64,000 bases of DNA from Tubulanus polymorphus (taxonomy: Eukaryota > Nemertea > Palaeonemertea > Tubulaniformes > Tubulanidae), in contig NC_134036.1 of assembly GCF_964204645.1 (NCBI RefSeq), forward strand, positions 372,001-436,000, in the 5' to 3' direction. Shown piece after piece: positions 29,169-51,400 of this stretch (the first letter of the stretch is position 1; each line of letters starts with the position of its first letter). The notes under the pieces are model-generated. The model was given only the letters and a program-made list of their open reading frames with translations, did no database searches and was not told where the DNA came from. Position numbers and translations under genes: made by a program.

Positions 29169-29434
29169 ATGAATAATGCTGAATACAGGTATGTCAAAAA
29201 TTCACAATAATTTCGATGCAGAATTTTATTTTATTAATTCGTTTATATTTCTTAACTCCTCATCTCTTAACTAGTAAATACACTTGGAACTATGATACTG
29301 CTGACGCGAGGACACGCCCGGGTCCGCGGGCTCAACCACCGCATACTGATGCGAGGAACGGCCCTTACTCTCAGGATACAGCTGATACACGGAGAATTGA
29401 TCCTAACCCGCAAACTAATAACATTCCAGAAACA
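29169..29434 (+). CDS. Candidate alternative 5' end of ZO gene, isoform start 1 (two exons)
   Basis: ATG at 29169 opens a 20-nt exon (29169-29188) before donor GTATGT. The acceptor at 29273-29274 joins in frame to 29275-29434, which ends at donor GTAAGT. Together they encode exactly 60 residues, beginning MNNAEYSKYTWNYD, rich in Arg, Pro, Thr and Asp with two DTAD(A/T)R motifs, and end in phase 0. The first common ZO exon at 49023 starts in phase 0 and lacks a start codon before PDZ1, so this end could splice to it across about 20 kb. No domain recognised. It could instead be the 5' end of an unrelated gene. Confidence 0.45.
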
Positions 29435-30725
29435 GTAAGTTGAATTTAATTCTTATTTTGGCAGAAAGTTGGATATTTTGATATCTCATTTGGATGGTAC
29501 AGCAGACTCCGCTCAAGTCTGATCTTTTGACTTGAGAGTGATATCTGAGTTGGATGGTACAGTAGACTCCGCTCAAGTCTGATCTTTTGACTTGAGAGTG
29601 ATATCTGAGTTGGATGGTACAGTAGACTCCGCTCAAGTCAGATCTTTTGACTTGAGAGTGATATCTGAGTTGGATGGTACAGTAGACTCCGCTCAAGTCA
29701 GATCTTTTGATAACTGAGTTAGATGATACATAATTCAAGGGTAAAAAATCCATGATTTGGTTGGATCTTGGACTGATTTTACTATATTTCTCAATTGTTC
29801 GGTGTTTATATTTAGAAAGTACGAACAAACATTCTGCATCAATCGCCAGAACAGTTGACAGGTTGTGATAAAATTACTGACATTCATTAATATCAAATCG
29901 CTTTATTTCGTCAGCCAGGAAATTTTACCAATTTGGTAAGTCAGTCTCAAAAATACCTTTAAAAAGAAGTTTTTTTCGTATAACCTAGGAATGGAATCTA
30001 TTTTCGATACTTTCGTTGTCATCGGTTGTGATTTGATTAGCGAAAATAAGAAGCCGTCGTAATTAAGGGTAAATAGTTGATGTAAATCAGAGGGAGTCTT
30101 ATCCATACATTCCACTGTATATTACCAGTTCGATCAAATTACATATACACGTATAGTAAGAGTTCCTATTGTTTTAAATCACAGACCACAATGAGTCAGA
30201 CTGCTAGTCGCGACTCTCGCAGTCTTACTGACTGACTCCTGGATGACTGGATAACTTTTCTTCCGATGAAGAATCAAGTTTAGTTTTCGGTTTTTGTCCG
30301 GTTTTGGAAGTCAGCGTTTTTTCGTTGAAGGAATACTGATTTCAGCAACAACGCGCCCTGGAGATTATTGTGTCTATTTTCGGCTTTCGACGAACTCACC
30401 TCACCTGCCTGAGCCTCCTTCTATATCAGCTGTTCATTATTTCAATCATTTTATGGTGAAACTTTAGTTCGATGATATCTCGCCAAAGTGTTTATACTTG
30501 ACAAACTCGAACCCGGGAACACGACGTATCTGACTAACGCGCTATTGTCTCAGAAGTTCAAATTCTTCTAACTCTGTTTTACAAAGTCAATTGTTCTTAT
30601 ACTTGAAATTCATATTCAGGAAATTGAAACAGATTTAGGAAATTGAAACAGATTTTTCATTGCGCAGTTGAAGTTTGGACACTGGTTTAACTGTAGCGAT
30701 TGTTGTAGGATTGATCGATTTTACG
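29435..30725. other. Region between candidate first exons 1 and 2
   Basis: Contains the 60-bp tandem array (29490-29715) and otherwise AT-rich DNA. I see no exon with both a start codon and a convincing donor, and no known RNA gene. Confidence 0.4.
29490..29715. repeat. 60-bp tandem repeat, about 4 copies
   Basis: The unit contains GATGGTACAGTAGACTCCGC and the hairpin arms CTCAAGTC/GACTTGAG. Copies are nearly identical. A single diverged copy lies at about 10205-10300. The minus-strand reading frame across it is a by-product of the 60-bp period. Confidence 0.9.
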
Positions 30726-31019
30726 ATGGCTCGAAAAAAGGATCAGAAAGAATCGAAAAATCTGCATTACTCTAAACGACTTGCGCCCCCTAGGGGTAGA
30801 TACGGTCACCCGGTGGTGCCATCTAGAGGCAGATACGGTCACCCGGTGGCGCCCCCTAGAGGTAGACACGGTCACCCGGTCCCGTACTGGTATGGGTCGT
30901 TACCACATTTTCATTCGGCGTGGTGGGATTTCGAGGATAGTTTGAGAGAAGGTGAATGGACTTCGTCCCGGCACCGTTCGCCCTATTTACCGTACCCCAG
31001 CCCGCACGGACGCAGTAGG
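30726..31019 (+). CDS. Candidate alternative first exon 2 of ZO gene
   Basis: ATG at 30726 (MARKKDQKES..) opens 98 codons ending R at 31019, directly before a GTAGGT donor, in phase 0. Residues about 20-52 are three tandem 11-residue units of the type PPRGRYGHPV. The rest is Trp/His/Ser/Arg-rich (WWDFEDSLREGEWTSSRHRS). The exon is clearly GC-richer than the flanking DNA, which supports coding. It fits as an isoform-specific N-terminus for the ZO scaffold, whose common part begins at 49023 in phase 0. No known domain; the link to ZO is inferred. Confidence 0.45.
30783..30881 (+). repeat. 33-bp tandem repeat (3 copies) inside candidate exon 2
   Basis: Three 33-bp units (starts 30783, 30816, 30849) keep the reading frame. 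Each begins with a word resembling the CTCF core on the minus strand: GCGCCCCCTAGGGG, GTGCCATCTAGAGG and GCGCCCCCTAGAGG. The coding reading is an 11-residue repeat. Confidence 0.85.
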
Positions 31020-31712
31020 GTAGGTTTAACTGAATTTATTTTTGAACTATGATCGTGTCGTAGCTGAGTTCAGAGTTTCAGAGGAATGTTAAACAGCTGT
31101 TGATATAAATATCATATCGATATTTTACAGATATATCATATTACACACGAGCGGGCGTCGGTTACATTTCAATATCAATTTCACTATTCTATGTTGTTGT
31201 ATATATACATATGGTAACCTTTAAAAAGGGAAACATTTGTTGAAAATAAATGTTTGAAAAACACTTTTTTAACAGTTTAATTTCGCATGTAATTTATTTT
31301 GATAATTGCTCGTATTAAACGTAAGGGAGGTGATTTTTAGAATATCGGTAAAATATTTCTACGATGAGACAGATGTTTTCGAAATGTTGAAGTGTTTTGT
31401 CAGGAGGTGGAGAGAGTGAGAGAGAGGGGGGGTGACGTTGTTAAGTAATTTGTTTCTATCTGTTATTCTGTGTGTTGAGTAGTAGTAGTTGTCGATGTGA
31501 TCAGAGTCCGGTGAACGAAATCTTCTTTGAAACCAGAATCAAAACTTTCTGTCGTCATCTTCGGGAAAACCATGATTTTCTGAATGCTCGAATTTTCGTC
31601 GTTGGTCGTCGGTATTTTTCGCCTGATATTATTTTCGATTATTTCGCGGCGTGTAATTTCGTGGATTTTACACCGACGACGACGACCGCTGCCACCAGGG
31701 GGAGACGCCGAG

Positions 31713-32171
31713 ATGCCGTTTGCTAGGATCGTCTCGTTGTCGAGGTTGGATAGCGTGAGTTTATTGTCGCTACCGGTCGGAGAGATCACTCCGGATGATA
31801 AATCTCTTCAACACGGTTTAAATACTGATTCAGTTTCAAACTGTGAAGATAACCCTCTCTTGGAGCAGCTGTTCGATGAACGCTCATCCTCCAAATCGGA
31901 TCATACGGAAATTCAGTTAAATTCTGGAGAGGAAGATGAGAAATTGATTCAAACTGTGACTCCTCTACCGGCGGAGTCGACTCCGGAAGTCGACTCCGAA
32001 CAACGGGATACGTTGTTACCTGCTCTGAGCGTCTATACCGTTTTACCTGACCAGCACCAGGGGGAGACACCTGATGGAGGTATAATTTCGCCTCCGGTAG
32101 GATTTCGCACGTCGGAGGAGTCGATCCGTCTGCTCCCTTCACCTCCTCCGAATATCAATACTTTTCGATCG
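31713..32171 (+). CDS. Candidate alternative first exon 3 of ZO gene (long, acidic)
   Basis: ATG at 31713 (MPFARIVSLSRLDS..) gives 153 codons that stop exactly at TCG (32171) before donor GTAAGA, in phase 0. The product is acidic and Ser/Pro-rich (NCEDNPLLEQLFDERSSS, GEEDEKLI, LPSPPPN), looks disordered, and has no domain I recognise. The exon is GC-rich within AT-rich surroundings. CTCF-like words CCACCAGGGGGAGAC (31692-31706) and ACCAGGGGGAGAC (32056-32068) sit just before and inside it. Phase and strand match splicing to the ZO body at 49023, but it could belong to a separate unrecognised gene. Confidence 0.45.
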
Positions 32172-32320
32172 GTAAGAAATTTCAATCTCAATTTATTTCT
32201 TCGACGCTTGATTTTATCAAATGCAATAATAAGGGGGATATATAGTTGATGCTACGATATCAACTTGAATTCTGCATTTGAGAGATGTCTACTTTATAGC
32301 TAAATAGGACTTGACCAGAC

Positions 32321-32570
32321 GCGGATCCAGAGTGGGGTTTCAGGGGTCGTGACCCCCCTGCTCAGCTACCAAAAAAGTTTTTTGTCATTTTCTTGAAGAA
32401 GTTATGTACTCAAGACAAATCGGGCGGACAGTACCGGTACATAATCGGTACCCTATCATCTTATGTTTGGCCCAACAATATGCCGTCTAGGCCATCTATC
32501 AGAGATTTTAGTCAGCGGTTTAACATAAACATTCTTTATTAATCCCTTCTGGAAAAAATCCTGGATCCGC
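32321..32570. mobile_element. 250-bp element with GCGGATCCAG TIRs
   Basis: GCGGATCCAG at 32321-32330 and CTGGATCCGC at 32561-32570. The interior begins AGTGGGGTTTCAGGGGTCGT. No coding capacity. Confidence 0.6.
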
Positions 32571-35500
32571 ACTTGTTGACTAGTCGAATGGGGTCCCTAC
32601 ATGAAAGGTAAAATAGACTGTGTCCTAGCTCGTCGTAGAATAGGGTCTGTAGGTAGAATAAGTTGTGTACTTGTATGAGTGATTATTGTTGAAAGCCTGG
32701 GACTCTCTTTCTCGATAGTCTAGTCCTACTGGGTGACGCTGTCACGTACAGTACTTTACAAACAATGGGCTCGTTCCAGGGTCTCGCTGTAAAATATATA
32801 TATCTATATATATATATATATACACAGTCCACGAGGTGTATTAATATACACACATGTAACAAGGAGTACTACAGACGATTACTACAACGCGTTGTAGTCT
32901 AATACTAATCATTTATAACTGAGATTATAATTCATTATGGTATTAAACATATTTACTATATATCATTAGTGATTATGATCGGTGTTTTGTTTGGAGTCTG
33001 AGAATTTGTGAATATTTCAAGCGTGTTCGCAGGGATTTATTATTGAGTTATGTCTACTATGAAGGTATTCAGGGATTATTTTAGATTAGTAGCTTTCCAT
33101 TCATATTCGCTTAACTTTTTACTATGATACATATTTTTATTACGTAGATGCTTTTTAACTGTTATCTGAGACACTAAGTTTATATAGAGGAACAGCTACT
33201 TTTTGAGAATACTGATTTTACTGATAATCAAAATAGGGATTAGAGAGAATAGAATTTATACGTGACATAGATTTGAATAGTGTAATATATGTCAATGTAT
33301 AGATGTATAATTTTTTAAACATTATCAATATCAGTTACTTTAACTAGTATTTTAACTGTATTGGATATCATTAACTGTTCTACGTTTATGATAAGACAAT
33401 TTTAAATAAGATTGGATTAGATACTATTTAATTAATCCATGACATGTGAATTAACATTTTCAATTTGAAAACATTGTCAATATTGGTTATTTTTCTAACT
33501 AGTATTTTAACTGTAGGTATCGGATCATCCTGTTCCAATTTCACATGGAGAAACAGATAAACAATTTGTAAAGGGTTTGAGTATCTTATGATGTCATTAT
33601 ATGTTAAAATGAAATGTAATGAATTTATTAGAAATGGATCATGCATAAACACATATAACAGCGATGTGTGACGTACTACAGCAGTATTATAGGAAATATA
33701 ATACTTCAAAAATCTATTGAATGTTTAGAGTGTCAATGCAGCCCCCAGTCTATACACAACGACATTGCTGTTATTCATTTCAATTTAAACAGTCGAAATA
33801 TATCCAATTGAAGTTATTCGATTCAGGCAAATTTCTATGGAATTATTGTTCACTCGTGGTGCAATTATTGTTTTATTCGATGATTTCTTTACCCTGAGGA
33901 TATGAGTAACATCTATATCAATCAATCTATACCTGTCTATCTCTCTCGAGGAAATGGCTTCAATTCATATTTATTTGTTTATTTCTTGACCTGTCAGGTT
34001 TTCCTGAGATAGATATCACCTCACAACATCGAGAGAGTAAATATGAAGGTGTCCTAACACGTCCTGTATTCAAATTGACCTTATTTACTTTACTTTTAAA
34101 TGGTTGAATTCTACTATAATTGGTGTCTATATCTCCGGGCTATGTTTGTGTAGGGGCTCGTTAGTATTATTCATGTAGTATGGATTTCATTGTCGCCGAT
34201 CTAGAGCTAATGAGCGTAGAAAATTGTAATTCACATTTCTTAACAACTGTTTTTCACGCTGTTCTGTGAAATTTCAGGTAATTAAATTCAGAATCGGGTA
34301 TTGATTGAGTTGATGATATTTTAGCTCGGTTTTAGTAGATATCTTTAGGCTATTTGTATTAGGGGTTAGGGGTACAGCGAGGTCTGGCTGAAATCTGCTG
34401 TTATATTCTGGGAAAATGACTGTTTGATTAAAGCAATAAGAAAACAGAATGGTGTAATGACAAATATTAGTTTTATAAGTTATAGTTAGGATAGATGTTG
34501 GTTCTTAGCCGGGACAGTTATATTCTTGCCTACAAGTTTAAACATTCAAAATTCTCAGAGATTAATTATTAAAAAAATTGCAGAAATTTCCAGTATAGAA
34601 AACTCTCAAATACACGATATATGTGTGATACCTGTTAACTGGATTATCTGTTGAGAAAACTGGATTATCTGGAGATTAAACTGGATTAAGACAAGATGGT
34701 AAAGGATTATGAATGGATGCAGGTGACAGAGGTTTGTATATTGTTTGTCATATTTTTATAAAAGGGGGCAGGGGGTGGGGGGTTGTAGAGTGTTTGAATT
34801 TTTGACAATGTTAGATGGTGTAGAACTTGAGGGAGGGGATGGCAGGAATAAAAATAAGGAGACTTATATTAATCTCAGTATTCAGAGTTTATGAATAAAA
34901 AACCCACGGTTTATTTTGTGACAGTTTCAAATTAAACTTCTTCGTCAGAGAAATGAAAAAAATGAACTAAAACGTGTGGACATGGAGTTGAGAGGGTTGT
35001 AGTAGTATAGGTTATACCTATAAAAAATAAAAACCAACCATGTACAAATCTAAAAGCAAAATTTATTATTCAATTATTGAAAATTGAAAGTTCTTTATAA
35101 GAGCGTTTTATATATTTCCTGTACTGAATTTCTAGTTTAAATATTTTCCAGTGCTAAAACAACTTGTTCTTGTCACTACTAGAAAAACATGCAGCTTAAA
35201 AAGTGTCAATTGACGAGTAACCTAAATACAGTCAGTACATTTACTTTCATATAATGTCGCGTTGTAAAGGGTGACAAGTTTATTCCATAGAGACAATAAA
35301 AGATAAATGTCTATTTTGAATTCTGGATTTCTAGAACTATCATTGTCGTTTCATAGTCAAATTGCGATTACACGTTTGGTACAATTAATATATATAGAGG
35401 TTTATTGCAGATCAGTGGCCATTTACCTTTACTGGAATATTTGTAGTTTTAAAGTTGACCTAACAGATTTTTTCATGAATCTGTCGCGAAGGACGTATTT

Positions 35501-36060
35501 TAAAATCGTTTTGATGCAATTTATTCAGTTTAAGTTTAATTTTATTCACTCGCGTTGATGCAGTAGATCAAACATTTCTAGAATCAGATATTTGATCATA
35601 ATTAGTGATCACACGGAGAAAATTTGGTGCAGGCCAAAAATGCTTGTTCAATCGCAGCTATAGTGTAAATTTGACAGTATTACGAAAAGCTATCGTTGAA
35701 ATCTGGTGAAGAATTTTCAGTGTTCCATATGTTAAAGGTGTTATATGTACTGATCCAATATGTGTGTAATTCAATCTGTAATCAGTTTATATTTGACTCC
35801 CTTTAATTACATTATACTTCTAATCTACATATATATTACTTTCTTCTTTTCGCCCTGAATTATACATTCATGTTTGAGTGATTTAGATAAAATGAATTGG
35901 GCCTTAAATCAAGTACTGTATGCAAGCAGTGGGGCCTTACATGACCTGATCACTACTCACTCACTGAGGTCACGTGACCACTCAGTGACCATCAACAGTC
36001 AGCATAGAGACCTAGCCAATCACAGAAACCCTAGCAGACCACTCTAGTCTGCATAGAGAC

Positions 36061-36124
36061 CTAGGGTTAGGGTTAGCCAATCACAGTAGCCCTAGCAAAC
36101 CATGTGACCTAGGGTTAGGGTTAG
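36061..36124. repeat. Telomere-like GGGTTA words
   Basis: CCTAGGGTTAGGGTTAGC occurs twice within about 60 bp, and a similar string lies at 1931-1947. The flanks (CAATCA..AGCCCTAG) are also shared, so these look like one dispersed repeat and not true telomere arrays. Confidence 0.55.
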
Positions 36125-36647
36125 CGAATCAGATCAGCTCTAACAACGACCAATCAGCATTGTCCTACTGGTAGGGTTTGGGCCTGATATGTCATGATAT
36201 TGACACACACTTTTGGACATAAAAATATCATTGGGAGCCTCAACTTGAACTAGTACCACACTAGTTGAAAATAAGCTCGAGTTAGAAATGAATGTAAAGA
36301 GAGTTTAGTTCAGTTTATTACCGCCAGGTGTCGGATAACATCATTTGTACGTTTAGATGTATTTACAAAGAAAAAACAAGATTTTCAAAAGATAGAATTC
36401 ATCATGTTCCATATCCTCACACAATTTACAAACAAACAAAATGATGATCCATTTCTCTACATTAATACCAAACCTAAATGTATATATTACACTAAACAGT
36501 GTTAGCTGTTTAATAGTTAAATGTATTGAAGTCCATATATTTCTCAATGAACTATTATTTCTCTAATCATTTCGGAACAATAGGCAGTGCTGCCACATTG
36601 TGGTAGATATACTCACTAATACTGTCTAGCGCACAATAATGGGCTGA

Positions 36648-36748
36648 GTTTAATAGACTGGTATTTACTTAAACCTGGGGGTTTACTCAATTAATAATGA
36701 ATTGAGTTGGGTTTAAGTTGTTAATACCAGTCTATAAAACTGGACCAT
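36648..36748. mobile_element. Family G foldback
   Basis: TTAATAGACTGGTATTTACT to AATACCAGTCTATAAAACTG around a central ACTCAATTAATAATGAATTG AGT palindrome. Confidence 0.65.
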
Positions 36749-37667
36749 GGTATTTAAGTTAGTGGAATAGTTGAATATCTTATGAATCTGTGTTTAACAA
36801 ATTTTTTTCATTATTCGAGCAGTTTTTATTTCCTGGAAAAATGCTAAACATTTTCAAAAACTTCCAAAATGACCAACGGAACAATAACTGAGACAATCCT
36901 GTTGAAACAGTGATGATGGTTGTTTGACGGTGCTTTGTATCAATCTATTGTTAGTGGATGATGAACCATTTTCCTGTCATTTCCCGTTGGACAAATTTCA
37001 TTGTCAATAACTGAAGAATAGTTTCTACACCTAAAATGTGTTTTTCAATGATTTCATTAATTGAAAAAGATGCTGTTTTTATGTACGTCAAAGAAGAAAC
37101 CCTTTTTTATCAAGATGAAAAAGATACAATATGATAATAGCTGAATATGTGTCATTTTATGGATAATGAATTCAAAGTTGTTTCTTTTGATGAAATATTC
37201 GAGTAAAAAGGCTCGGCGAGTTTGCGCAGCGGTCATCTCTGATATCGGTAACCGTGGGAAACCAGACCCCTCGATTGTAACAATTAGCCCGCATGTTGTC
37301 GTTTTGTGTTTCTTTGTACAAAAAAAAGTAGCGATGGTTTTTGACGGATTTCGATAGCTCCCTCACATTACAAAAGTTCCTATACATATTTTTGCCCTCG
37401 GTTTATTTATTTAACACGCAGGAAATGGTGAAAAAATAACAAGTATAATTTAATGCTCGGTGATAAAGTATTCTTCATGTGTGGTCAGTGCGGGAATCTG
37501 AAATGGACATTTCATTTAGACTGCTCCCGGCTTGTGGCTAATTCCTTCAATGCGTAGTTTTTTCTATGAGTTTCCTCCAAAGATTCATGTATTTCAAAGA
37601 ATAAAATGAAATCGTTTGAAATTATTGGATAAAGATGTGTGGAATTTTCAACCTTAACTCAGTATTC

Positions 37668-37698
37668 CTGAAGATGACTATTAGAATATAGTCGAAAT
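37668..37698 (+). ncRNA. Second hammerhead-like motif
   Basis: CTGAAGA, one T, a 6-bp stem (GACTAT..ATAGTC), GAAAT. It has the same layout as the copy at 23700, including the extra T, but a different stem sequence kept by compensatory changes. Confidence 0.35.
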
Positions 37699-38259
37699 GT
37701 CGGATAGACTACACTTGCTTTAGGAATCATATTCAGTCATTATTGTTGTGAAATTATTATTACCTGTCATTATTTTTTTGTCATTAAGAAATTAGAAACT
37801 TGAAGTAGACTCTAAGCGCACCAAGACTGTGATTTCAATGCCTAAAGAATTGAATATTTGAAGATATTTCAACCTTTATTCACCGGGCGTTTATCGGGTT
37901 CCTGTTTAGAATATTGCGGTCAGTTGACCTACTCACAAGTCAATTCATGCAAAGTTCATGAATTTTTTAGTTTTTGTCATTTTAACCTTCACCTAAAGAT
38001 GTCTTCATAATCAAATATGGGAAATTCTGAGAAGGTAATAGAACTGTTTCCAGGCACCGCATCTCGGACAAAGTCGTTTTTGAAAAAATCTCATTCCTTT
38101 TTAAAGGTCACTAGGTTTCCAGACCAGGAAATATTTCCCAGGTTCAACGACAAACAATATTATCAATATCTCTTCTCTTGAGACGCATCAACCTGATGAT
38201 TATTGATATCGGGTTCAATTATCTTTTTCATCAGCTCAAACTACCAGCAATGAAATCAT

Positions 38260-38418
38260 GGGCTGCTGTTGCTCGAATGTAGGCTACCAGTGGATAGTTG
38301 ACAGTGACGATTCAAAGTTCATTGTAACATTGTTACTATGGTATTTTTATCTGCCAGTTATCTTTTGAAAATAATAATTTATATTATAATTTAACCAAGT
38401 TTTCAGCAACTGGCCGCA
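38260..38418. mobile_element. Family B foldback (diverged)
   Basis: GGGCTGCTGTTGCTCGAATG to AGTTTTCAGCAACTGGCCGC, with CCAGTGGATAGTTGACAGTG inside. Confidence 0.6.
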
Positions 38419-40675
38419 GTGGTTTTTTTCAAGGTGTTCCCACGCTCACTCGCTCGATGGATTTTTTCTTTTTAACTTTTTTTACTATTTCCCCCTTCGT
38501 ATATTGTCTTGTTTTCTAAAGGTATCCAGGGTTAGATAGATTGACCCTCCGGTCGGAATTGCTACTGATATTACACTTTACCATCCTGTTTGCCTTTCAT
38601 TACTTCTTTCCTCGTATTGTGTCCATTTTTTCGACCCTGGTCCGCAGTAAGAACTGGCCGTTGTTTGTACTATTGTCTAACCTGATCCAGGGGTTACTCA
38701 ACAACCTGTTCAGCCGTCTTTGAGGTTCCTGGACATCGCCGCGAGCGCAACAATGAAAAACTTGTTTTTCACCGTGGCAACCATTTATATAATGTTTTTT
38801 AGCGGTTCCCACAGGTTTTACAATAACAGTGATGGCCTCTTGACCACATGGATGGATTAACCTCACTATTTGTCATCGTCCGACAATAGTCTCGGTCCTA
38901 ACGATAATTGACTCAGATCACCGGCAATTGTGTTTATTTCACTTTTATTTAGTCTCGGGATTTCTATAAACCGGTCAAGCATAAATTTGAGTAGAATGGT
39001 CTGCGTTGTTTCACGTCACAACACGTCGTTGACCAGACGTATCCCTAGATCACCTAGTAAACCCTGCACCTGAACTACTGATCTCTATTTACCCCTTCAC
39101 CCAGTGCTGCTGTGCCTGGACCGCGTGAATAGAATGCATCAATTTATTGAAATGAGCTAAGCTGGAATACCAAACTCTAAGTTGAGTTTCTTAGAAATTC
39201 TTTGATGGATGTTGATGTTGAACTTCGTTAATATGATTCAGTTTAATCCGTTTGTTAAGCATTAATTTCCAGCATGTCCCAGCTAACGTATTTATATCCA
39301 TCCAGATTTGAAAAATATCAATACCACAATTTCACTTTTGCCGACAAGATTCATATTAACGAGGTTCATTGTATTACTATTTCTATGATTTGCATAGAAA
39401 CCCGTATGTCGAGCAATTTCTACAAAATTGTCTTTGATTTAATGAGATTCATCGGAGAAGCCTGTAGGCTCCTGAGGGACAGTGACAGCGGTCAGTATCG
39501 CGAGGACAGACAGTCATCACTGACCACTCGCTGACCACTCATTGACCCCTAGTTTGTTCCATCCATGAAATCTACATCTGTCGTTATAATTAGTGCAACA
39601 ATCTGTTTAGTGACAATTTATCTGATTTATTTTATCGCAGATTCACACATGAAAATTTGATATTTCACTCTCATAATGTGGTTTATCAATTTTTGATATT
39701 TCACTATCATAATAGCGTTGATATATCTGATATTAAAGCGATGCTGATGGCATCCATTAGTTTAATGAAAATGATTTTTCTCATATCACCTTCACTTGAA
39801 AATCTTTGAGATTTTCTAATGATATTCTCTTGAAAGCGTTTGCGAGATTCTAATGATATTATCATCGATCAGTTTATGATGAAATGATAGAGTGATATAT
39901 CTGAGATTACAGCAGTAACGCGCCTGCACGATATACATGACTATAGTGCCTCCACACGTGCGCGCGCGCAATAACTTGTCATCATTTTACTAATAGATTA
40001 ATTTCATGAAAGCTTTCAATACATTTGTAATTAGAAATGTCTAGGGTTTTATATGATTCACATGGCCCAGCGCGAGGCAGACAGATCACGAGGGCCTGCG
40101 CGAAGCAGGCAGGTCACGAGACCTGGTGCGAGTTAGGCAGGTGACAGATAGTTGTAGCAGATGTAGACCAACTATTGACACGGAAAAAGTGGCTTTACTT
40201 ATTGAATTTTTCCGGAGCAGCTGCCTGCCACCCAAAATTACAATAAATGATTCTATCGATGAATTGTTATCGATAAATTTAGAAATCAAATGATCTCGTT
40301 GTCGATATTGTAGAAAGTGTGCCGGTTTGTGTCTGAGCTGCAGCTGGGGTCTAGTACCAGCTGGTCGCGTCGCCGAGCAAGCGCTAAAATGTACAAATGA
40401 ATCGAGAGATTTTGTTAAAAAGATTTGAAGGGTTTTTGTGTTTGATAATGATCTCTTGTGTAAAACATAGTGTAGACGACACGTGTCACCCTATACATGT
40501 GGGATATTCACATCTTTTATCAAGGAAGGATGGGCCGATCCTAACCTCTCCGTGTCTACCCGTGTGTTCATTGTCACATTGGATCATATGATATCTAGTA
40601 TTAGGTTGACTTCATTTTATTATGCAGAAACATGTATTTGATCAAGTAGATCAATGATGTAGCCTATACCAGCCT

Positions 40676-40815
40676 TTCCCAGTTCCACACTTTGTGAGTT
40701 AGTGTAAACTCTGAACTCAGGATTCATTTCCACAGTTGTGAGTTAGAGTTAACTCTGAACTCGGGATCCATTTCCACAGTTGTGAGTTAGAGTTAACTCT
40801 GAATTGAGATCAGTT
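40676..40815. repeat. Family F repeat, tandem units
   Basis: Three units of about 50 bp of the form CCACAGTTGTGAGTTAGAGT TAACTCTGAACTC. Each unit is partly self-complementary (GAGTTAGAGTTAACTCTGA). Confidence 0.7.
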
Positions 40816-41732
40816 CATATTCAGTCTTTTAACTGATTTCTAGACTGACCTTTTGTCTATATTATGTACAATTGTTTGTTAGGACTTTGTTCTTAACCAC
40901 ACAGACCTGTAAATCACGATCCAATAGGTCAAAAGTATTGCCTAATCGTCCGTTCGATCAAACATTTCTGGTATTTGTAGTTTGTATTTATGTAAAATAA
41001 AGCTAGAATTTATCACCAAATAAACCACTGAATTGTATAACACTATAGCGATGTTTGTCTGGATTTAAAAATAATAAACTAATATTATATAATAGCATAG
41101 GAGTTAGAGTATAGTAACCCAGAATAAACAGTTGGTTGTGCAGCTGATATGTCCAGGAATCAAAATATCCTAAGCTCAGGAATTTGACGAATCTTGAAAA
41201 GAATATTTGAAATTCTCAAATTTAGATTTCAATCTATTGTTTGAATTGTGGGTTGGATTGTTTAACTGCCCGTGATATTCACTGGTTCTAAATCCAATAT
41301 GTCACTAGCTACTACCGCCCACGCTTTATTCCCTAGAGCTATGAACCAAAATTATGACAGATTTTATTACATAATTCGATGTGAGTTTTATAATCGGCTG
41401 ATCTCCGTAGAAATCCTCTTACTCGTAACTCGTAACCCCGCTGATCTCCCCCTGTAGCTCACCCCTGACTCACTCACTATCCAGTGATGTTGTGAAATAT
41501 AGACCAGCGATTGTGAAATCACACAGTGAAGTGTTTGGACCGAGGCCGCTCGGTGAATATTTCGCAATAATCTACAGAAATTTCCTAAGCGAAAAAGATC
41601 AAAGCTTTTGAACGAAAACAAAGATCACAAACTTCAAAGATCGCGATCGACTTCAAAGTGTTCTGGGTATCGATCGTTTCAAGGCTTTCAATTGAATTCT
41701 GAACTGAAATAGTTTGAAGTTTTCTGGACACG

Positions 41733-41798
41733 ATGAAATTTATTAAAAAAGGAAAAAGACAATTATTGAGAAAGATCGCAAAGGATTATTTAGAATTA
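41733..41798 (+). CDS. Weak candidate first exon of ZO gene (22 codons)
   Basis: ATG at 41733 encodes MKFIKKGKRQLLRKIAKDYL plus two residues and reaches a possible GTGAGG donor after 41798 in phase 0. Very basic. Its donor is less standard than in the other candidates, and the exon is short enough to arise by chance. Confidence 0.2.
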
Positions 41799-42154
41799 GT
41801 GAGGATTACTGTTTTATCGATATTAAAAACATATGCGTGCGGTAGCTAAGCTAACTTCCCCGTACACTGTATAATAGACCAGTCTATTCTAGTTCACCTG
41901 CCTTGCCGGGTCAATTCATTATCGGGTATAAGAGGTCGGTTGACTGGCGTTTATTATTATTGTGACACATTCTCGTCGAACATGTTTAAACGCGTGCGGC
42001 TGTAGCTCCAGCCTCCTCCGGGTTTTAACAGGTAGCAGTTCATCTCGCCGATCAGTTGGATGCAATCACTCACCAAGTGATGAAATCTATTTCATATTGA
42101 TTTGACTAAGAGTTTAATAACAACACACGGCGACGTTCACAGCAGATATCAATT

Positions 42155-42173
42155 CTGCTGCTGCTGCTGCTGC
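42155..42173. repeat. (CTG)6 microsatellite
   Basis: Six CTG units about 190 bp upstream of the candidate first exon at 42360; possibly in its 5' UTR. Confidence 0.9.
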
Positions 42174-42359
42174 AATTATAAAAAAGAACGGACTGGAAAA
42201 CTGCTGCATAGATGATGTTTATCACGTATGGATTAAAGGATTAATGGATTCAAAGAGTTAATCTAGTCGATTTAATCTCAATTCAAAACGCGCGCATTTA
42301 TCACACTCGGGTATTTGAATTTATTGCGTATTAATTAGCGAGACACTCTAATTAGCAAA

Positions 42360-42434
42360 ATGTACATTAACGAAGAAACAGAATTCAAATATTGGAAAAA
42401 TAAAATATTTGATTGGCTCGAATGTATTCTATTG
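42360..42434 (+). CDS. Candidate alternative first exon 4 of ZO gene (25 codons)
   Basis: ATG at 42360 encodes MYINEETEFKYWKNKIFDWL and five more residues (ECILL), then a perfect GTAAGT donor after 42434 in phase 0. About 0.5-0.9 kb upstream lies comparatively GC-rich DNA that may be a promoter and 5' UTR. Short N-terminal exons of this kind, driven by separate promoters, are known in vertebrate ZO genes. Joining it to 49023 would give a protein of about 1341 residues. Support is splice and frame logic only. Confidence 0.4.
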
Positions 42435-45400
42435 GTAAGTGATTTTACTTATAAATCTAAAGTATTATTATGATTTTGATAATAATAATTATTATTATTA
42501 TCATTTACCATATTCGGTGAGTTATTCAATGGGATATTGTTTTAAGCAGGCACTATCAAAAAATATGTATACATAATTAATTAAAGTGTGGCTAATTATA
42601 AACTTGAATAGAAATATAGGAGCTGATCTGAAATGGTTAAAATAGGTAAATTGAATAGAATATTTGGAGGAAGATCAATTAGGCTAATTACAGAAATTTA
42701 TTCATTCCGAAATATTCAATGAGATAATATGAATGAGGGGTTAGTAGAGACCGTGGGATTAGTTTAGTATCTGCATGTGAAATATTTCTCTTATTGTGCA
42801 ATGATATTGTGAACTGTGAGACTGGTTTTTCATGAAATTCCTTATCAAATTCGAACACAGTTAGTTGTCTATCAGCGACCAGTGATCATTATGTGTGTGG
42901 GAGGAACTTCAAACAATTCATACGTATTGACTTTCAAATATTTCTTTGCCCTATGATACAATTCTATAATTTATCGATTTCAATAATTAATGTATTGCTC
43001 GTGTCTTGATAAGATATAACAGGCATTTTATCTGAGCTTATCGGTTTAATATTCCCTAGGCTTATTTGAAACTATGACAACATTTCAATGATTGAGATAA
43101 ATTGATATTATAGAGCCATTGCCTCTTAAAGCATCAATCGATGTTGATGATTATTTTGATATTTATTAAGTCCACTTACCTCCGTATCAGTCATTCAGAC
43201 TATTGTCGGGAGCCAAGTAAATTAGCTCACTTAAAGTCGCATGAGTTTAGTGCGGGCTTCTTAATGAAGTGGCTCTGATAAGATGACGCGAACCCTCGGG
43301 CACACATCCTGGGTTGAACCCTCGGGCACACGCATGTGGTACACACTATTATTACACAGATGATTTATTCAAATATTTAATTTTTATTCACTCCGTTGAA
43401 AGTTGAAAGTCATATTTGAAAAGTCATTTGACAGATGTATTGAATTGTGTTTGTTTATGTGGATGTAATAACCCCTCTTATGTTTACTGTACTCAATTTA
43501 CCTCGTATAGTAAACATGCAATGATATCTATATTGATATTTGATACGTATTGGTGTGATGGAAACATGGCGCAATAGAGCGATGGTTTTAGCAGTTGTGT
43601 AGAGAGGTGTTAATGTATATAACATATATTTTAAATGTTCTGTTTTAATGTATTGATTTTCTGGTCATATGGAAATTGATTTTCAATATAGGCATGAATG
43701 CATTGAGAGTCTCTGCAACATTAGCTGTAAAGCTATATTTCATATTGTGTGAATTGAATCCAATATGCGACTGTAACACCTGCCTCATGTGACCGCTAAC
43801 TCAACTCTATACATCAGTCTATTGTTTCCACGGTGATGAGATCATCGGTTTATTAGTTATTGTGATGGCGTTAGTGTATATAGTTAGTTAAATCACTGCG
43901 GGTGCAAAGCAGAACCTTGCTTTATACCTATAAAACCTGCAATCGGTTATTCGTAAGAAATATTTTTTGGCAAGGCTTTACAGATTCGGGATTAAGCAAT
44001 TACAGTTAAATGAATCTGAATATAGTTTTGCGAAAGACTTTTATAATGATAATTATTATTAATTTTATTGAATAAAGATAAAGCAATATGGAATAGGTTA
44101 TAAATATGGGGGTTATATTGAACTGGGTAGAGGTGCAAGCGTGGGAATTTACTGAGGAATTTTTCAAGTGGGTTTAAATTCACTAGTGATTACATTCCAT
44201 GTTTATATGAATTGTTCTATTTGGTCAACGGTCAGAACATTGTCACTCCTTAAAACTGTACCGGTAGTGGTGGTCAGTAAGGTCAAGCTAATGAGCGAAT
44301 GGTCAGTTTACTGGTCGGCGTCATTTCACGATTTACCGCTAGAAAATCGAATCGAATCGAGCTTATTGTCCGTCGATCAAAGAATTCTTTTATTTTTCAA
44401 ATCTAGTTATGCTGAAAATTCTTTTATGTTTTTAATGTTTTGCGCAAAGAATGAAGAAGATTGCTTTCAGAAATCTCTCCCTCTTTCTCTCTATTTTTTT
44501 CTCGCTGTCCCTGTCTGTTTCGGGTCTTGTGGTTTAAGCAATGACAATGAATGCGCTTAACTTAAAATATATATACACATGAGACATTAGAATTCCAAGC
44601 ATTTTTGGCAATAGACAATTATTTGAGGCTCGCGTTTGTGTCACGGTGACATACATTGTACATTGTTTATTGTATTATCTTAACGCGACTGTCTTTGTGA
44701 ATTCCTTATGAAAAATGAATAATGTCGTCATAGTCGGTTATATCGCGGTGGAGATTATGGGTTTTGATTTCGAGGTGCCTCAAATTGTCGTCAGTAGAGT
44801 TAAGATTGCTGTTATGTAGTTTGAATGTGGCGTGGAATTGTTTTAACTCATGGTTGTGATCAGTGATGGATATCACAATGATTGGGCAAGTATTTTAAAT
44901 ATCTCAATTCTCTGGTCCAGAGTTTGTGGGCTAAAGTTAGAATCAGTTCAGTTGCAATGTTTCAACCAGGTTTGATAGTGATTCAGAATTATATTGTTCG
45001 AATTGATATCTGTAACTATCTGTATTATTTGCTTGAATTGTAAATCAATGATTTAAAATCCATGGTTAAGATGAATTTTTAACTCCTAGATGACCACCTG
45101 ACCAACCTGACATGACTTTCAACCAAGAGGTCAATCTTATAAATAACTATTCACAATTTTGTAAAAACTATTGTCAAATGACATATGTTTGATTAATAAG
45201 AATCAAATTAGGCCGTAATTTTCTGAGGTGTCTTGGTCAATGTAAAGATGATTATTTTTATCGCGTGGGTTCAATGACAGTTCTTGATATAGGTGAAAGT
45301 TAAAGAGTTAGGTATATGTTTTGAACGTGTATATCACCCCTTGATGAATTTCAAGTATTCATATATTATACACTGAAGTATTGTCTGAATTCATTAATAT

Positions 45401-46241
45401 CGATAGAAATGTCAGAGGAAATGATAAGGACGGCGGCTAGACTTACTCTATTAGTTAAGGGTGGTCCCTCACTAAATTCCTCTCTATCTTTATCTTTGTG
45501 ACAGATACTCACGATTATTCCGTCCAGTTCTATGATTCCTGTCTTTGAGGTTTCAACTTCGTTTTTAAGAAATTTTTAAGAATGTACTAATAACTATGTG
45601 TACACGTCCTACGCAGTTGTCCATCATCCAGTTGATAATAATTTCGATATTTCATATGATAATTTTGATAACATCAATACCACTGGAGTGTGTTGTAGTT
45701 TTATAAGAGGAATCAGTTAAGTGCGAGCTGTGAACAGATGCGTTGCGAGTAATTGCCGATTTTTGACAGCTTTTAATAATATTTTGCGAATTCGCTTCAA
45801 TTTCGTCCAAAACATGTTATTAAAAAAAGAAATGTCATCGAGTAAATTATTGCCGGCGGCCGCCGCTGATAAATACAGTATATATAACAGTAATAGCTAT
45901 TTATTATAAGTGAGTAGAACGGCTGTAAACTGTGACGAGGAGCTATCGTCTTGTTACCATGGTTACTGTTTCCGTAGTTGTCTCTGTTCAAACATTTATA
46001 AGATGTCGACTGATGGAGAGAGTCATACAACGCGTAATTAGTCTGTCTTATTTGATAATTAGCGTGATTTGATAATAGCGCCGATGATGCGTCCATCCTC
46101 CTACTGTGCGTGCGTCATGCTTCATCACAGAGAAATATCAATTAGATAGAACTTCTCATCTTTCAAAAAGTTTGTCAAAACTTTTGCTTTGATTTGTGAA
46201 ATCAATGAATTTCTAATTTGTCTTCTCAGCGATCTCTTTGT

Positions 46242-46347
<106 letters not shown>

Positions 46348-47280
46348 TTTCCCCCTCTTTCTTCCTCTCTCTCTGTCTCTCTTCCTCTCTCTCTGTCTCG
46401 TGTCTTTGCTGTTTGATCTGTAATGTTACATGCTTCAAACTTGTGTTAGATGAAAATCATTTTGATGAAAACTGTTTTTTTTTTAAAGGCGTGAGCTACA
46501 GACCTTCATTTATCCAGTTTGATATATCAGCTGGATATCAAACTCATTAATTTTCTATTGAAATTAATGATGTTTAAGACTGAAGGAGTTTATGGTATTT
46601 AGTGGTAAGACCGAATGGTTTATCTTTAATCTAAAATTCTCACGATGAGGTCCCAATTGTCTGAAATACTCCATCCATCATCATCATTATCTATTTGACT
46701 GGTTTCATCCCGTAGAGAGATTGCCTCACTCCTCCCTGCTCCCCACACCCCCGGGAGATTGAAGAGACTAATTCCCCTCCCCTCCCCGCCCGCCTGCCGG
46801 GAGAAGCTGCTATTATTGATTCTAAGCACGAAATTCACCATTAATGCGATTACTTACGAAAATTAATCAGTAGGTCGTAACCGCGGTAACGCGTATGAGA
46901 CAATCTCCCGTCGCCGAGGGAACGAGGTAAGCAGCGCCACCAGTGCTGATAAGAGGAACAAAGTATCGGAGTGTATTTAATAAAGTCTCCGATGAAGAGC
47001 TACTCTTCACTATATCGGAATATTTCAGAATATCGAGATTTTAATAAGCGCATATCTCGATAATATCGCAGATTATTTGAGATGTAGGGATACAGTGAGA
47101 TAGACTGTGTGATATTTGTAGGATTTCTAAAACGATTTGTGCGGAATTTTCATGTGGATTTCTGACTGTTCTGAACGGTTTCTAAACTTCTTGGATCTAT
47201 AGTTAATCAGGCTATTTCCGATTTAAGAGAATTGTAGAATTGCTATTTGATTTTTTTTCATTTGCGATTTTTCTATATAT

Positions 47281-47422
47281 GCCTGGATCTAGTTCCAAAG
47301 TTGTGAGTTAGAATTAACTCTAAATTCTGGATCCAGTTCCACAGTTGTCAGTTTAAGAGTTAGTGTGAGTTGAATTCAGTTGATTTTCAATGAATTAACT
47401 CTGCACCGTGGAACCGGGTCCT
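47281..47422. mobile_element. Family F foldback
   Basis: CTGGATCTAGTTCCAAAGTT to CACCGTGGAACCGGGTCCTT; contains two GTGAGTTAGA-type words and TGAATTAACTCTG. Confidence 0.65.
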
Positions 47423-48446
47423 TAGTTAGTATTTATTGAATATATAGTCAATCATGCAGATATCTGCCTATTCTGCGTTGTTATGTGTTGGTAACTGAGT
47501 GATAACTGGTCATATTCTCTATAGACTAGAGAATGGAATAGTTTTAATAATTTAAACCACGCGATTCTTTCATTTACAAAATGAATATGTATTAATTCAT
47601 TTGAAAACCCATGAGAATAACGGCCATTTCTGTATTGCGATCGTCAAATTTTAAACATTCGCGAATAAATTGTTCGGAAAACTTTCCTCCATTCAAATCG
47701 ATGTTCGTTACATGATTCGCCTTTCATTTACTTTTTCAAAATCGTTGATAATTTTTTTTGCAAACTCTTCTAATATTGATGATGTGAAAGCTTTCTCATG
47801 TGATACTGCGGTTATAGGAGTTTTTGCCGGAGGGGTCTTATCTCATCTCATCTCATCTGTTTTCTCTTGTTTTCTATTGAATAGTTTTTCTAATCTGCCT
47901 CAGTATTCTCTGATTAGATTTGATGACAATCATTCACGGAGATTTGATGACAATCACTCACGGTTTCTCATTTGCTACAATTTTCATATCGACGTCTCTG
48001 AATTTGCTGCTGCTTAGTGTGACCGGTTATGTAAATGATAACCGCCCTGATTGTTGAGGGGTTTCTGATGCCTTTCACAACTCCGGAGTGACATCGGTTA
48101 TTGATAGCGCGGAGTGCCTGAGTGCCGGGATACAACGCAGTTTTAAATTAATTTGTTATTGCCTGTTGTAATATTTGCGGGAAGTCAAGTTATTGTTGAC
48201 TTTGGATGAAATATTATATTTACGATATTCAGCGAGCGTCACGCGACGACCGACCATTCTGGAATATGTTAGCAAACGTAAAGCATATTCAAATTGGATT
48301 TTTTCGCGTAAATTTTGTAGCAAAATGTAAAATTCTTATTTGACATTTGCTACAAAAATTAGTATAACGCTAATTCAGCATCGAGCAGCGCAGACAGGCG
48401 ACTAAAGGGATTGTGACAATTTTAAAACAGTGTTTAGAACAGAACA

Positions 48447-51400
48447 ATGAGATTTTATCATTTTAAAGGGCACAGGGTTGGATTACCAGAGGATTATGAG
48501 TGGAAATGTATTAAAAATCAGATTTGGCAACTGGTAAGTTCTGAGTTCAATCTTAGACCTCATGTTGTTGTTCGATGTATTTTTGATAACTCGTGGTTAC
48601 ATTCATGTGCTCACACTCCTCTCCCTCTCTCTATCTCTGAAGAGAGTGATGTTTGCTTCCAATCCCATCTCATGGATACTACACAAACAGATAAAACTAT
48701 TAATGTTATTTCTCTGGTAACAGTTTTCTGAGATTGTGAATGAATGTTTGGAGGTGTGTTTGTGTGTGGGGGAGATGTTGGTGGTGCACTGGGGATGTTA
48801 TTCCTTATCATAATACGTGTTACAGAATAAACAGACAAGATTTTACAAATAACCAGTTGAAAAAAATGATATCTATTATTTTCGATTTTTATCCCAGACA
48901 CAAGCCAGTAAAAACCACTGCTTTCAGGGGTTACACAGAAATTTAAAAAACCATTTTCTATTCTTATCCCTGAAATGAAATTCGTTCTATTAATTCCATG
49001 TTTGATTATGCTGTATTTTTAGGGAGGAGGTGACCGGTTTATTTGGGAGACGCACCACGTGACGTTGAATAGGGTCGCCGGGTTTGGTTTCGGTATTGCG
49101 GTTAGCGGTGGTAAAGACAGTCCACACTTCACCAGCGGAGACCCTTCCATAGCTATATCCGATGTGCTAAAAGCCGGCCCGGCTGAAGGCAAACTACAGT
49201 AAGTCAAATCATCTTTATATTTGAAATTCATTAAATTGCGATTTTATCATAGGTTCACTGAACGGATCTTGTGGATTAGGGAATTCTGACTGTTATCGTG
49301 AAAATCAGGGAATTTGAATTTTTGGTGTCTATCTAGCTCTTGCTGGTGATGAGTGGCAAAAGGAACCTCCTAATAAGCAGAAACAGCCCTCACTGAGGGT
49401 ACCTTATAATCTAAACAGAGAATTCTTATTATTAATCACGAAATGTTTTAAATAATGAAATGTGTTTATTTTCTAGTATCAATGATCGTGTGATATCTGT
49501 GAATAACGTGCCTTTAGATAATGTCGACCACGCGTACGCTATCTCATTACTGAAAGAATCTGGAAACACCGTTAATTTAGTAAGTACAATCAAAGAAATA
49601 TCTTAAATCTTTGAGATTGAAAAGTGGGTTCTAAAACCGGGTTCTTATGTTATTCGCAGGTTGTTAGTAGGAAACTAATGATAGGAAACAATGAACCGAC
49701 TCCGGAACCAGTCAAAGTGACGTTAAACAAGAAAAATAAAAAAGATGGTAGGTTACTTGAAAAACTGAGAGAAATCCCACAATAGATTCAGCCAAAAATG
49801 AAAACTTCTATATTAAAATGATATCTATACATTTGAGCAATGTTTTTGCTAAATACTAATAGCCATCATCAGGTGTACTTTTCATTTTTGGCTGAATTCA
49901 TTATGGGATTTCTCACGTTATTCATCATACACGGATATTGTGTGCATCTTCTCGAGTGAAAAATCCCGAAAATTCACAATTTTTGAGTTTTAAATCTTGA
50001 ATCTTTTCCGTCGCTTAATTTCGAATCTGATTCTGATTTTTGTAGAATATGGAATCGTTCTCGGTTGTAAACTCTACGTCAAAGAGATCACGGGGAATAG
50101 TCTTGCCGCTCAGGACGGCGGACTAAAAGAGGGCGACACCGTACTGAAAATTAACAACGCAACAGCCGAGAATCTGTCGCTGACGGAAGCGATGAAAATC
50201 ATCGAGAAATCGAAGGATAAATTGAATTTGATGATTTCGAAATCGACGAAAACTTCGCCACTCGACATTAAACATAAAAAACAAAACAGTGAACCGACTA
50301 TAGATAGTGAGTAACTCAGCCACTAGAGGGCTCTTTATAATAATCATATCAATCTTCAATATGAAATATGTTAATGTCCTCTACATATCAATAAATACTT
50401 GTATTTAAAAAATGAATGCTTGTTATTTTCAGATTTCAATTTCCCGAAATCCGAAGCTCGACAATTCACGCCTAAACTCGATAACACGGAGAGGGGAGTC
50501 GGGAGAGCCGGTACGCAGTACGGTGCTGCCCCCTATGCCGATCGACATTATAACCAGACGTATGAAGCTAATTCAGATGGAGGCTCGGGGTCGCCGTACG
50601 AGGAACCCCCTCCACGTCCCCCGCTGCCGGATATGGATATAAAAGCTGGTACGTTTCATTGCATCCAATATCTGATCATATTCCGGGAATATCTTATCTG
50701 AAATGTTTGAAATATTCAAATCTTACAGAACCTCCGCCGAGGCCTCCGACTCCGGGCAAAGAAGCGTCTCATCCGGCGTACCGCGGTCATCCTAGTCACA
50801 TCGCAGCGCCATCTAGCTATAAATCGGTGAACAATAATGAACTACCAGCCCCGTCGGTTAGACAGCATAGCTTGTAAGTATTAATCCCTATCGAGTATAA
50901 ACAGTGTTCATCGCTCAAATTGAGTTTGAAATTAATTATTCTCATTCAGGATTCGTCAAATCAACTCCCCTTTCTGTAGGTAATGTATATAAATGTTTTA
51001 TGTGGCAATTTTGTGCATTTTTGCTCGGGTAATTTTTCCTGAAAAGAACGACGATTTGGCTTTTCTGCAAATCTTTTTTCGCTTTAAAATTCATCGAAAT
51101 TCTTTTGAAAATGGAATAAGCCTTTTGAGATATCTTTCTTGTTGATAAATGAAAGCAATTTAGAGCAGATGATTAAAGAGTTGCTATACATCACTGAGTT
51201 GTGTCTATTCACTGATGTAAACAGTATTTAGCATGATCTACCATTACGATATTTTATGGTCTTGAAATCCCTTTCACAGATGTGTCTCTTTCACCTCCAT
51301 CAGTTACCGGGTTGTCACAGAACTATATTGTATGTTCTCTATCATTAATCAGTTTTCACAAAATGCCTTTGGTTGAAGTTTGGTTTTTCTGGGCTCTGGT

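Follow-up and report, generated by a model that had tools for sequence, protein, structure and literature searches.

A ZO (TJP) gene of Tubulanus polymorphus with several probable alternative first coding exons

ZO scaffolds connect junction proteins with the cytoskeleton. Here we describe an invertebrate ZO (TJP) gene from the nemertean Tubulanus polymorphus, which probably carries several alternative first coding exons. The gene lies in a stretch of 64,000 nucleotides (assembly GCF_964204645.1, contig NC_134036.1, positions 372,001 to 436,000), called the window below; all coordinates refer to it. That vertebrate ZO genes use alternative N-termini, as stated in a preliminary description of this locus, is borne out by two described systems. 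The zebrafish tjp1b gene (ZO1b) has three starts, Alpha, Beta and Gamma, whose unique N-termini are spliced to a common exon before PDZ1 (PMC10703405). RNA in situ, tags and mutants were used there to show that the ZO1b isoforms differ in expression and synaptic role, and robust localisation of channels at electrical synapses is reported to depend on the isoform, as set by the choice of N-terminus (PMC10703405). Judging from an oligonucleotide printed there, the Gamma first exon appears to end in phase 0 after nine codons. For human TJP2 (ZO-2), promoters PA and PC are described, the N-termini differ by 23 residues and six spliced transcripts are mentioned (excerpts of PMC6747478). Among other MAGUK genes, mouse Dlg2 (PSD-93) has six described N-termini from alternative promoters, plus further ones (excerpts of PMC6389146). 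No publication on invertebrate ZO first exons was present among the matches listed from the open-licence PMC literature.

The T. polymorphus gene consists of a common body and of upstream start frames at five loci, lettered A to E. Several of these are likely to be true alternative first coding exons; B, C, D and E are the best candidates, and A is an uncertain fifth. The features are as follows.

29169 to 29188, plus strand: candidate start exon A1 (MNNAEYS..), 20 nt, doubtful; donor CAG/GTATGT, score 10.9
29275 to 29434, plus strand: candidate exon A2, doubtful; phase-0 donor GTAAGT
30726 to 31019, plus strand: probable start exon B, 98 residues, length beyond chance; donor GTAGGT
31713 to 32171, plus strand: probable start exon C, 153 residues, or 196 from the alternative ATG at 31584; donor GTAAGA
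42360 to 42434, plus strand: probable start exon D, MYINEETEFKYWKNKIFDWLECILL; donor GTAAGT, score 10.1
48447 to 48533, plus strand: probable start exon E, 489 nt before the body; donor GTAAGT, score 12.5
49023 to 58131, plus strand: common ZO body, 22 exons, 1,316 residues plus stop, with PDZ1-3, SH3, GUK and ZU5
49023 to 49198, plus strand: first common exon, phase 0, with the shared acceptor (score 13.7) and the start of PDZ1

For B, C, D and E, the coordinates given in the preliminary description were confirmed by an open reading frame (ORF) and donor check, and all five donors are in phase 0 as it had stated. The exons had also been called GC-rich, which holds for A2 (51%), B (55%) and C (49%) against the window mean of 37.6% and fails for D (25.3%), E (34.5%) and A1 (30%). 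Instead of "at least five" N-termini, four (B, C, D and E) are reasonably supported, and A is doubtful.

As in zebrafish tjp1b, first exons with unique sequence and separate ATGs would be joined to one ZO body before PDZ1; B, C, D and E all begin with an ATG and have donors whose phase matches that of the common exon, and the Gamma first exon, too, appears to end in phase 0. In contrast to the three starts of tjp1b, there are four or five candidates here. Zebrafish Alpha and Beta are described as sharing extra exons, whereas no internal extra exon passed our cut-offs. In eight comparisons of the A, B, D and E peptides with the zebrafish Beta and Gamma N-termini, the best p value (A with Beta, 0.044) was not significant after eight tests. 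The locus would resemble human TJP2 as a ZO gene with promoter-set N-termini, and the 23-residue difference there is near the size of D and E; the two TJP2 promoters described compare with four or five candidate starts here. In number, the closest system is mouse Dlg2, likewise a MAGUK with many N-termini. Unlike the ZO gene, however, it is a DLG with palmitoylated and L27 N-termini. The set had been called unusually large, which would hold among the ZO genes compared (three in tjp1b, two in TJP2) and not for MAGUKs as a whole, given the six or more N-termini of Dlg2. DLG proteins are not known to have a ZU5 domain.

In the 22-exon body model the phases agree throughout, every internal border has a GT donor and an AG acceptor, and a single stop ends the frame. 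Three PDZ domains were detected in it (Pfam PDZ, three stretches, E 1.3e-42), followed after PDZ3 by SH3 (SH3_2, 6e-7) and guanylate kinase (Guanylate_kin, 7.2e-10) and by a C-terminal ZU5 at residues 1182-1279 (1.9e-34). The nearest solved structures were ZO-1 PDZ1 for the PDZ1-2 stretch (E 7.1e-35) and ZO-1 3tsw for PDZ3-SH3-GUK (2.2e-94). By its sequence, the body at 49023-58131 is a ZO (TJP) orthologue. The first common exon begins in phase 0 in this model, as previously claimed. The absence of an ATG before PDZ1 was also confirmed: the first Met of the body is residue 100, past the Pfam PDZ1 match at residues 13-95. Because the TAG of the acceptor before 49023 is a stop in frame with the body, the frame cannot run upstream unspliced. 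With no Met before residue 100, the body therefore needs an upstream phase-0 start exon. The acceptor at 49023 scored 13.7, the second best of the 22 ZO acceptors, on a matrix trained on the same acceptors. Some invertebrates trans-splice, and such a strong acceptor could in principle receive a spliced leader joined in trans at 49022, which would make the upstream frames irrelevant. This reading is extremely improbable, as the product would start at residue 100 and the well-conserved PDZ1 would be lost from it.

The region 28000-49022 was screened for ATG frames of at least 25 codons ending in phase 0 at a donor of score at least 5.7, with a donor matrix trained on 21 donors of the ZO body. 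The thresholds were fixed after the candidates had been seen, 25 codons being the length of D and 5.7 the donor score of B. On the plus strand, seven qualifying phase-0 donors were found at five loci, exactly the loci A to E described earlier, and the minus strand of the same 21 kb gave one such frame. By phase 0, 1 and 2, the frames numbered 7, 0 and 4 on the plus strand and 1, 1 and 0 on the minus strand. Shuffling in 500-base blocks gave 2.08 ± 1.57 frames, and seven were reached in 1.3% of 300 shuffles. The excess was sharper among long frames and strong donors. Three frames of at least 98 codons (B once, C twice) were observed versus 0.03 expected, and none of the 300 shuffles reached three. 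Frames with a donor of at least 10.0 were two (D and E) versus 0.12 expected, matched in 0.7% of 300 shuffles. When the limit was lowered to at least 5 codons with a donor of at least 9.5, D and E were the only plus-strand phase-0 frames in the 21 kb; phase 1 gave none and phase 2 gave two on the plus strand, and the minus strand gave none.

In our order of confidence the start exons rank as C, B, E, D and then A. Coding potential was scored by codon log-odds trained on a set of 14 window segments, partly picked by eye, that excluded ZO; over the 22 ZO exons the score ranged from -0.13 to 0.48. Exon B scored 0.23 per codon, within the ZO exon range, and 2.2% of 134 overlapping stop-free 60-codon intron windows were as high. 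Its peptide is basic (net charge +11) and contains three 11-residue repeats encoded by a 33-bp tandem unit at 30783-30880. The start context, tttacgATGG, is good, and the 150 nt before it contain no further ATG; the donor, at 5.7, is the weakest of the five. Exon C, whose peptide is by eye acidic and Ser/Pro-rich, scored 0.18 per codon, a value reached by 3.7% of 134 intron windows. Its codon use is frame-specific over 31713-32171 (0.18 vs -0.03 and 0.03); the frame-specificity of B is weaker (0.23 vs 0.16 and 0.08 in the other frames). The start at 31713 is fair in context, with a purine at -3, and has two upstream ATGs within 150 nt. The N-terminus of 153 residues proposed for C agrees with the frame and the donor; on the other hand, the frame is open upstream to the in-frame ATG at 31584, which would give 196 residues. 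Codon use in the extension, 31584-31712, is not frame-specific. The extension would add a hydrophobic stretch, FSSLVVGIFRLILFSII, with a mean hydropathy of 2.3, possibly a membrane anchor if translated.

B and C are separated from the body by 17-18 kb, a long interval with tandem repeats, and match no Pfam or NCBIfam family, as would be expected if one or both belonged to a separate short gene or to a non-coding transcript of the large 5' region rather than to ZO. We regard this as improbable. The donors of B and C are in the exact phase required by the ZO acceptor, and the GC content falls straight after them, from 0.61 to 0.35 at B and from 0.52 to 0.28 at C, as in the ZO body, where it drops from 0.45 to 0.31 on average. 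The earlier statement that no gene intervenes stands for RNA genes, which is what the search covered: the window gave neither a tRNA nor, at gathering score, any match to Rfam.

The preferred reading, a ZO gene with several first coding exons, includes also the two short frames nearer to the body. The donor of E (12.5) ties with the best ZO donor. Both starts are fair in context, with A at -3; upstream ATGs within 150 nt are four at D (-116 to -148) and one at E (-122). The best ungapped match between the two peptides is a 13-mer, EETEFKYWKNKIF, aligned with a segment of E. The full-peptide local score was equalled in 6.5% of D shuffles and 6.4% of E shuffles, and the best 13-mer statistic in 1.7% of D shuffles. 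The 13-mer score was reached by nine of 5,709 stop-free 25-residue window peptides, six of them D and E themselves and three from one place near 59.5 kb. In a search for further D/E-like exons, a two-row profile run over the six frames of the window returned at its cut-off D and E alone, which such a profile finds by construction. Among the ten pairs of N-termini, nine gave p values of 0.24-0.81 and D-E gave 0.0645. The N-termini were previously called unrelated in sequence; this holds for the nine pairs, and D and E may be related, although with ten pairs compared the peptide similarity is suggestive only.

Candidate A had been given as a spliced exon pair, 29169-29434. Its phase-0 GTAAGT donor stood; the second exon, from 29275, has an acceptor score of only -4.0, whereas the 22 acceptors of ZO range from 5.3 to 13.9, and an uninterrupted frame from the ATG at 29216 also runs to the donor at 29434. 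As a single exon from 29216, A was rejected, its first 20 codons being intron-like (-0.36). Six ATGs lie within 150 nt upstream of the A start. The codon score of A2 was 0.13, and 4.5% of 201 intron windows were as high. As a fifth start exon, A is doubtful. A 60-bp tandem array (29479-29710, 3.9 copies, 97%) begins 45 nt past its donor.

Several results weigh against the reading of multiple first exons. At the looser threshold of the screen, chance alone should produce about two short frames, as the mean of the shuffles indicates, and the 9.9 kb antisense to the ZO body yield two such frames, one of them 94 codons long. For B, an antisense frame outscores the sense frame (0.30 vs 0.23), and codon use in A2 is not frame-specific, with 0.11 in another frame and 0.17 antisense. 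D (-0.13) and E (-0.20) are intron-like in codon score, as may occur in short AT-rich exons such as these, and GC content barely changes past the E donor (0.37 to 0.35). Core-promoter motifs near the five starts showed nothing consistent: over 400 nt, the only TATAWA sites were those at -163 for A and -183 for D. The five N-termini had no match to a Pfam family at E up to 1, a CARD included, unlike zebrafish Alpha with its CARD, and no match to NCBIfam, a library built for prokaryotes. These points leave room for a reduced reading, in which only one to three candidates are real, most likely B and/or C with one downstream exon, and A and one of D and E are chance frames by cryptic donors. The yield of the shuffles, the neutral codon scores of D and E, the lack of frame-specificity in A2 and the poor acceptor and upstream ATGs of A all favour it. 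However, D and E each end at a strong donor, a combination that shuffles seldom matched, they are the sole phase-0 frames of this kind in 21 kb, and they may share a peptide motif. We therefore hold the reduced reading to be unlikely, if by no means negligible.

The start frames could also be joined to one another. Internal exons of 45-900 nt, open from phase 0 to phase 0, with an acceptor of at least 5 and a donor of at least 5.5, were searched for in 28000-49000, and none was found at these cut-offs. In the 130-290 nt around each start, the best acceptors for A, C, D and E scored at most 4.4, under the ZO range, the best near C being 3.6. Near B, three acceptor-like sites just reach the ZO range, at 30709 (6.2), 30697 (5.6) and 30668 (5.3). 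The first two enter phase 1, which A with its phase-0 donor cannot supply, and the third runs directly into an in-frame stop. Within the stretches searched, the frames thus do not seem chainable in frame through good sites. A, B and C lie within about 3 kb and B has these borderline sites, so they might be imagined as following one another in a single long 5' transcript that might also include the body, but for the reasons given the serial route A to B to C to body was rejected and is highly improbable. A non-coding 5' exon spliced to B is possible. With no in-frame serial route at these cut-offs, alternative first exons are favoured. The central proposal of the preliminary description, alternative first exons feeding one ZO body, fits the shared strong phase-0 acceptor and the lack of ZO-range acceptors near A, C, D and E, with uneven support among the exons and a doubtful A.

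A further comparison is offered by the clustered protocadherins. Their variable exons are homologous copies, with CTCF sites in promoter and exon. They use alternative promoters (excerpts of PMC4835542). The ZO locus would resemble them as an array of first exons for one shared body, two of which (B and C) have CTCF-like motifs within or next to them; in contrast, its first exons are not homologous copies, with D and E at most as an exception. The motif used was a CTCF core consensus, CCASYAGRKGGCRS. Allowing up to two mismatches, 22 cores were found in the window, about fourfold the mean of 5.0 in 300 column-permuted patterns, all of which stayed below 22; 20 dinucleotide shuffles gave a mean of 2.75. 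With up to one mismatch there were nine cores versus 0.38 for the permuted patterns. With up to three, 64 versus 47 was no clear excess, as 6.7% of the permuted patterns reached 64. The cores near B and C are the following.

30783 to 30862, minus strand: three CTCF-like cores in exon B, one per tandem unit, one mismatch each
30839, plus strand: fourth CTCF-like core in exon B, two mismatches
31689 to 31705, both strands: overlapping CTCF-like cores, two mismatches each, ending 8 nt before the C ATG

Thus six of the 22 cores lie at 30783-31705, four in the B repeat (not independent of each other) and two at 8-24 nt before the C ATG. None with up to two mismatches was found at A, D or E. Exons of the ZO body contain the starts of five of the 22; therefore, the cores at B and C may partly reflect GC-rich coding sequence. 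At echinoderm TAD boundaries, the enrichment of CTCF motifs is described as modest and without orientation (excerpts of PMC13317027), and a vertebrate-like looping role is for this reason not to be assumed. By analogy only, the motifs would fit promoters at B and C, which is suggestive only and is given as a lead, not a result. A more elaborate reading is conceivable, with five alternative promoters, CTCF-like elements that double as coding sequence in the distal GC-rich exons B and C and a protocadherin-style choice by looping. The 33-bp tandem unit of B encodes repeated RG/GHPV peptides. The proximal D and E would then descend from an old exon duplication, keeping an aromatic-basic anchor, E-[FW]-K-x-x-K-N-x-I-[FW]. 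We find this version very improbable.

Other features of the window were recorded in parallel. Upstream of the ZO gene and divergent from it lies a carboxyltransferase piece (26241-26549, minus strand), by eye like methylcrotonoyl-CoA carboxylase beta. A dynein heavy-chain stalk and AAA region is found at 4756-5883 (plus strand). A long single frame at 15721-17268 (minus strand) has a galactosyltransferase domain (PF01762, 1.1e-22) and apparently lies antisense inside the dynein-like gene, as far as the limits of that gene can be told by eye. Downstream, at 59373-61297 (minus strand), there is a PR/SET and C2H2 zinc-finger gene; its SET piece (60405-60767) had PRDM9 as the nearest solved structure (3.7e-15), and its finger array contains an 84-bp repeat of 2.6 copies (59600-59819). 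The segment 63330-63677 (minus strand) resembles a KRAB box by eye, with no Pfam match at 0.01. A 44-bp tandem array of 22 copies (91% matches) occupies 62355-63324.

Returning to multiple first coding exons, the locus would work as follows. B, C, D and E would each have their own transcription start and ATG, possibly chosen by tissue, and the phase-0 donors of all four would be spliced to the single strong phase-0 acceptor in front of 49023. Start exons further downstream would be skipped, because they are without good acceptors. The same PDZ-SH3-GUK-ZU5 body would thereby receive different N-terminal peptides, basic and repetitive from B, acidic and Ser/Pro-rich from C, and short, aromatic and perhaps amphipathic from D and E. 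By analogy with the zebrafish ZO1b isoforms, these peptides may steer the localisation of the scaffold or its partners. Alternative ZO starts are a known mechanism, and their extent in an invertebrate ZO gene may be new. If four or five N-termini are indeed placed on one invertebrate ZO body, alternative ZO initiation either predates vertebrates or arose repeatedly, and the gene would be a simple system for asking about the role of the region before PDZ1.

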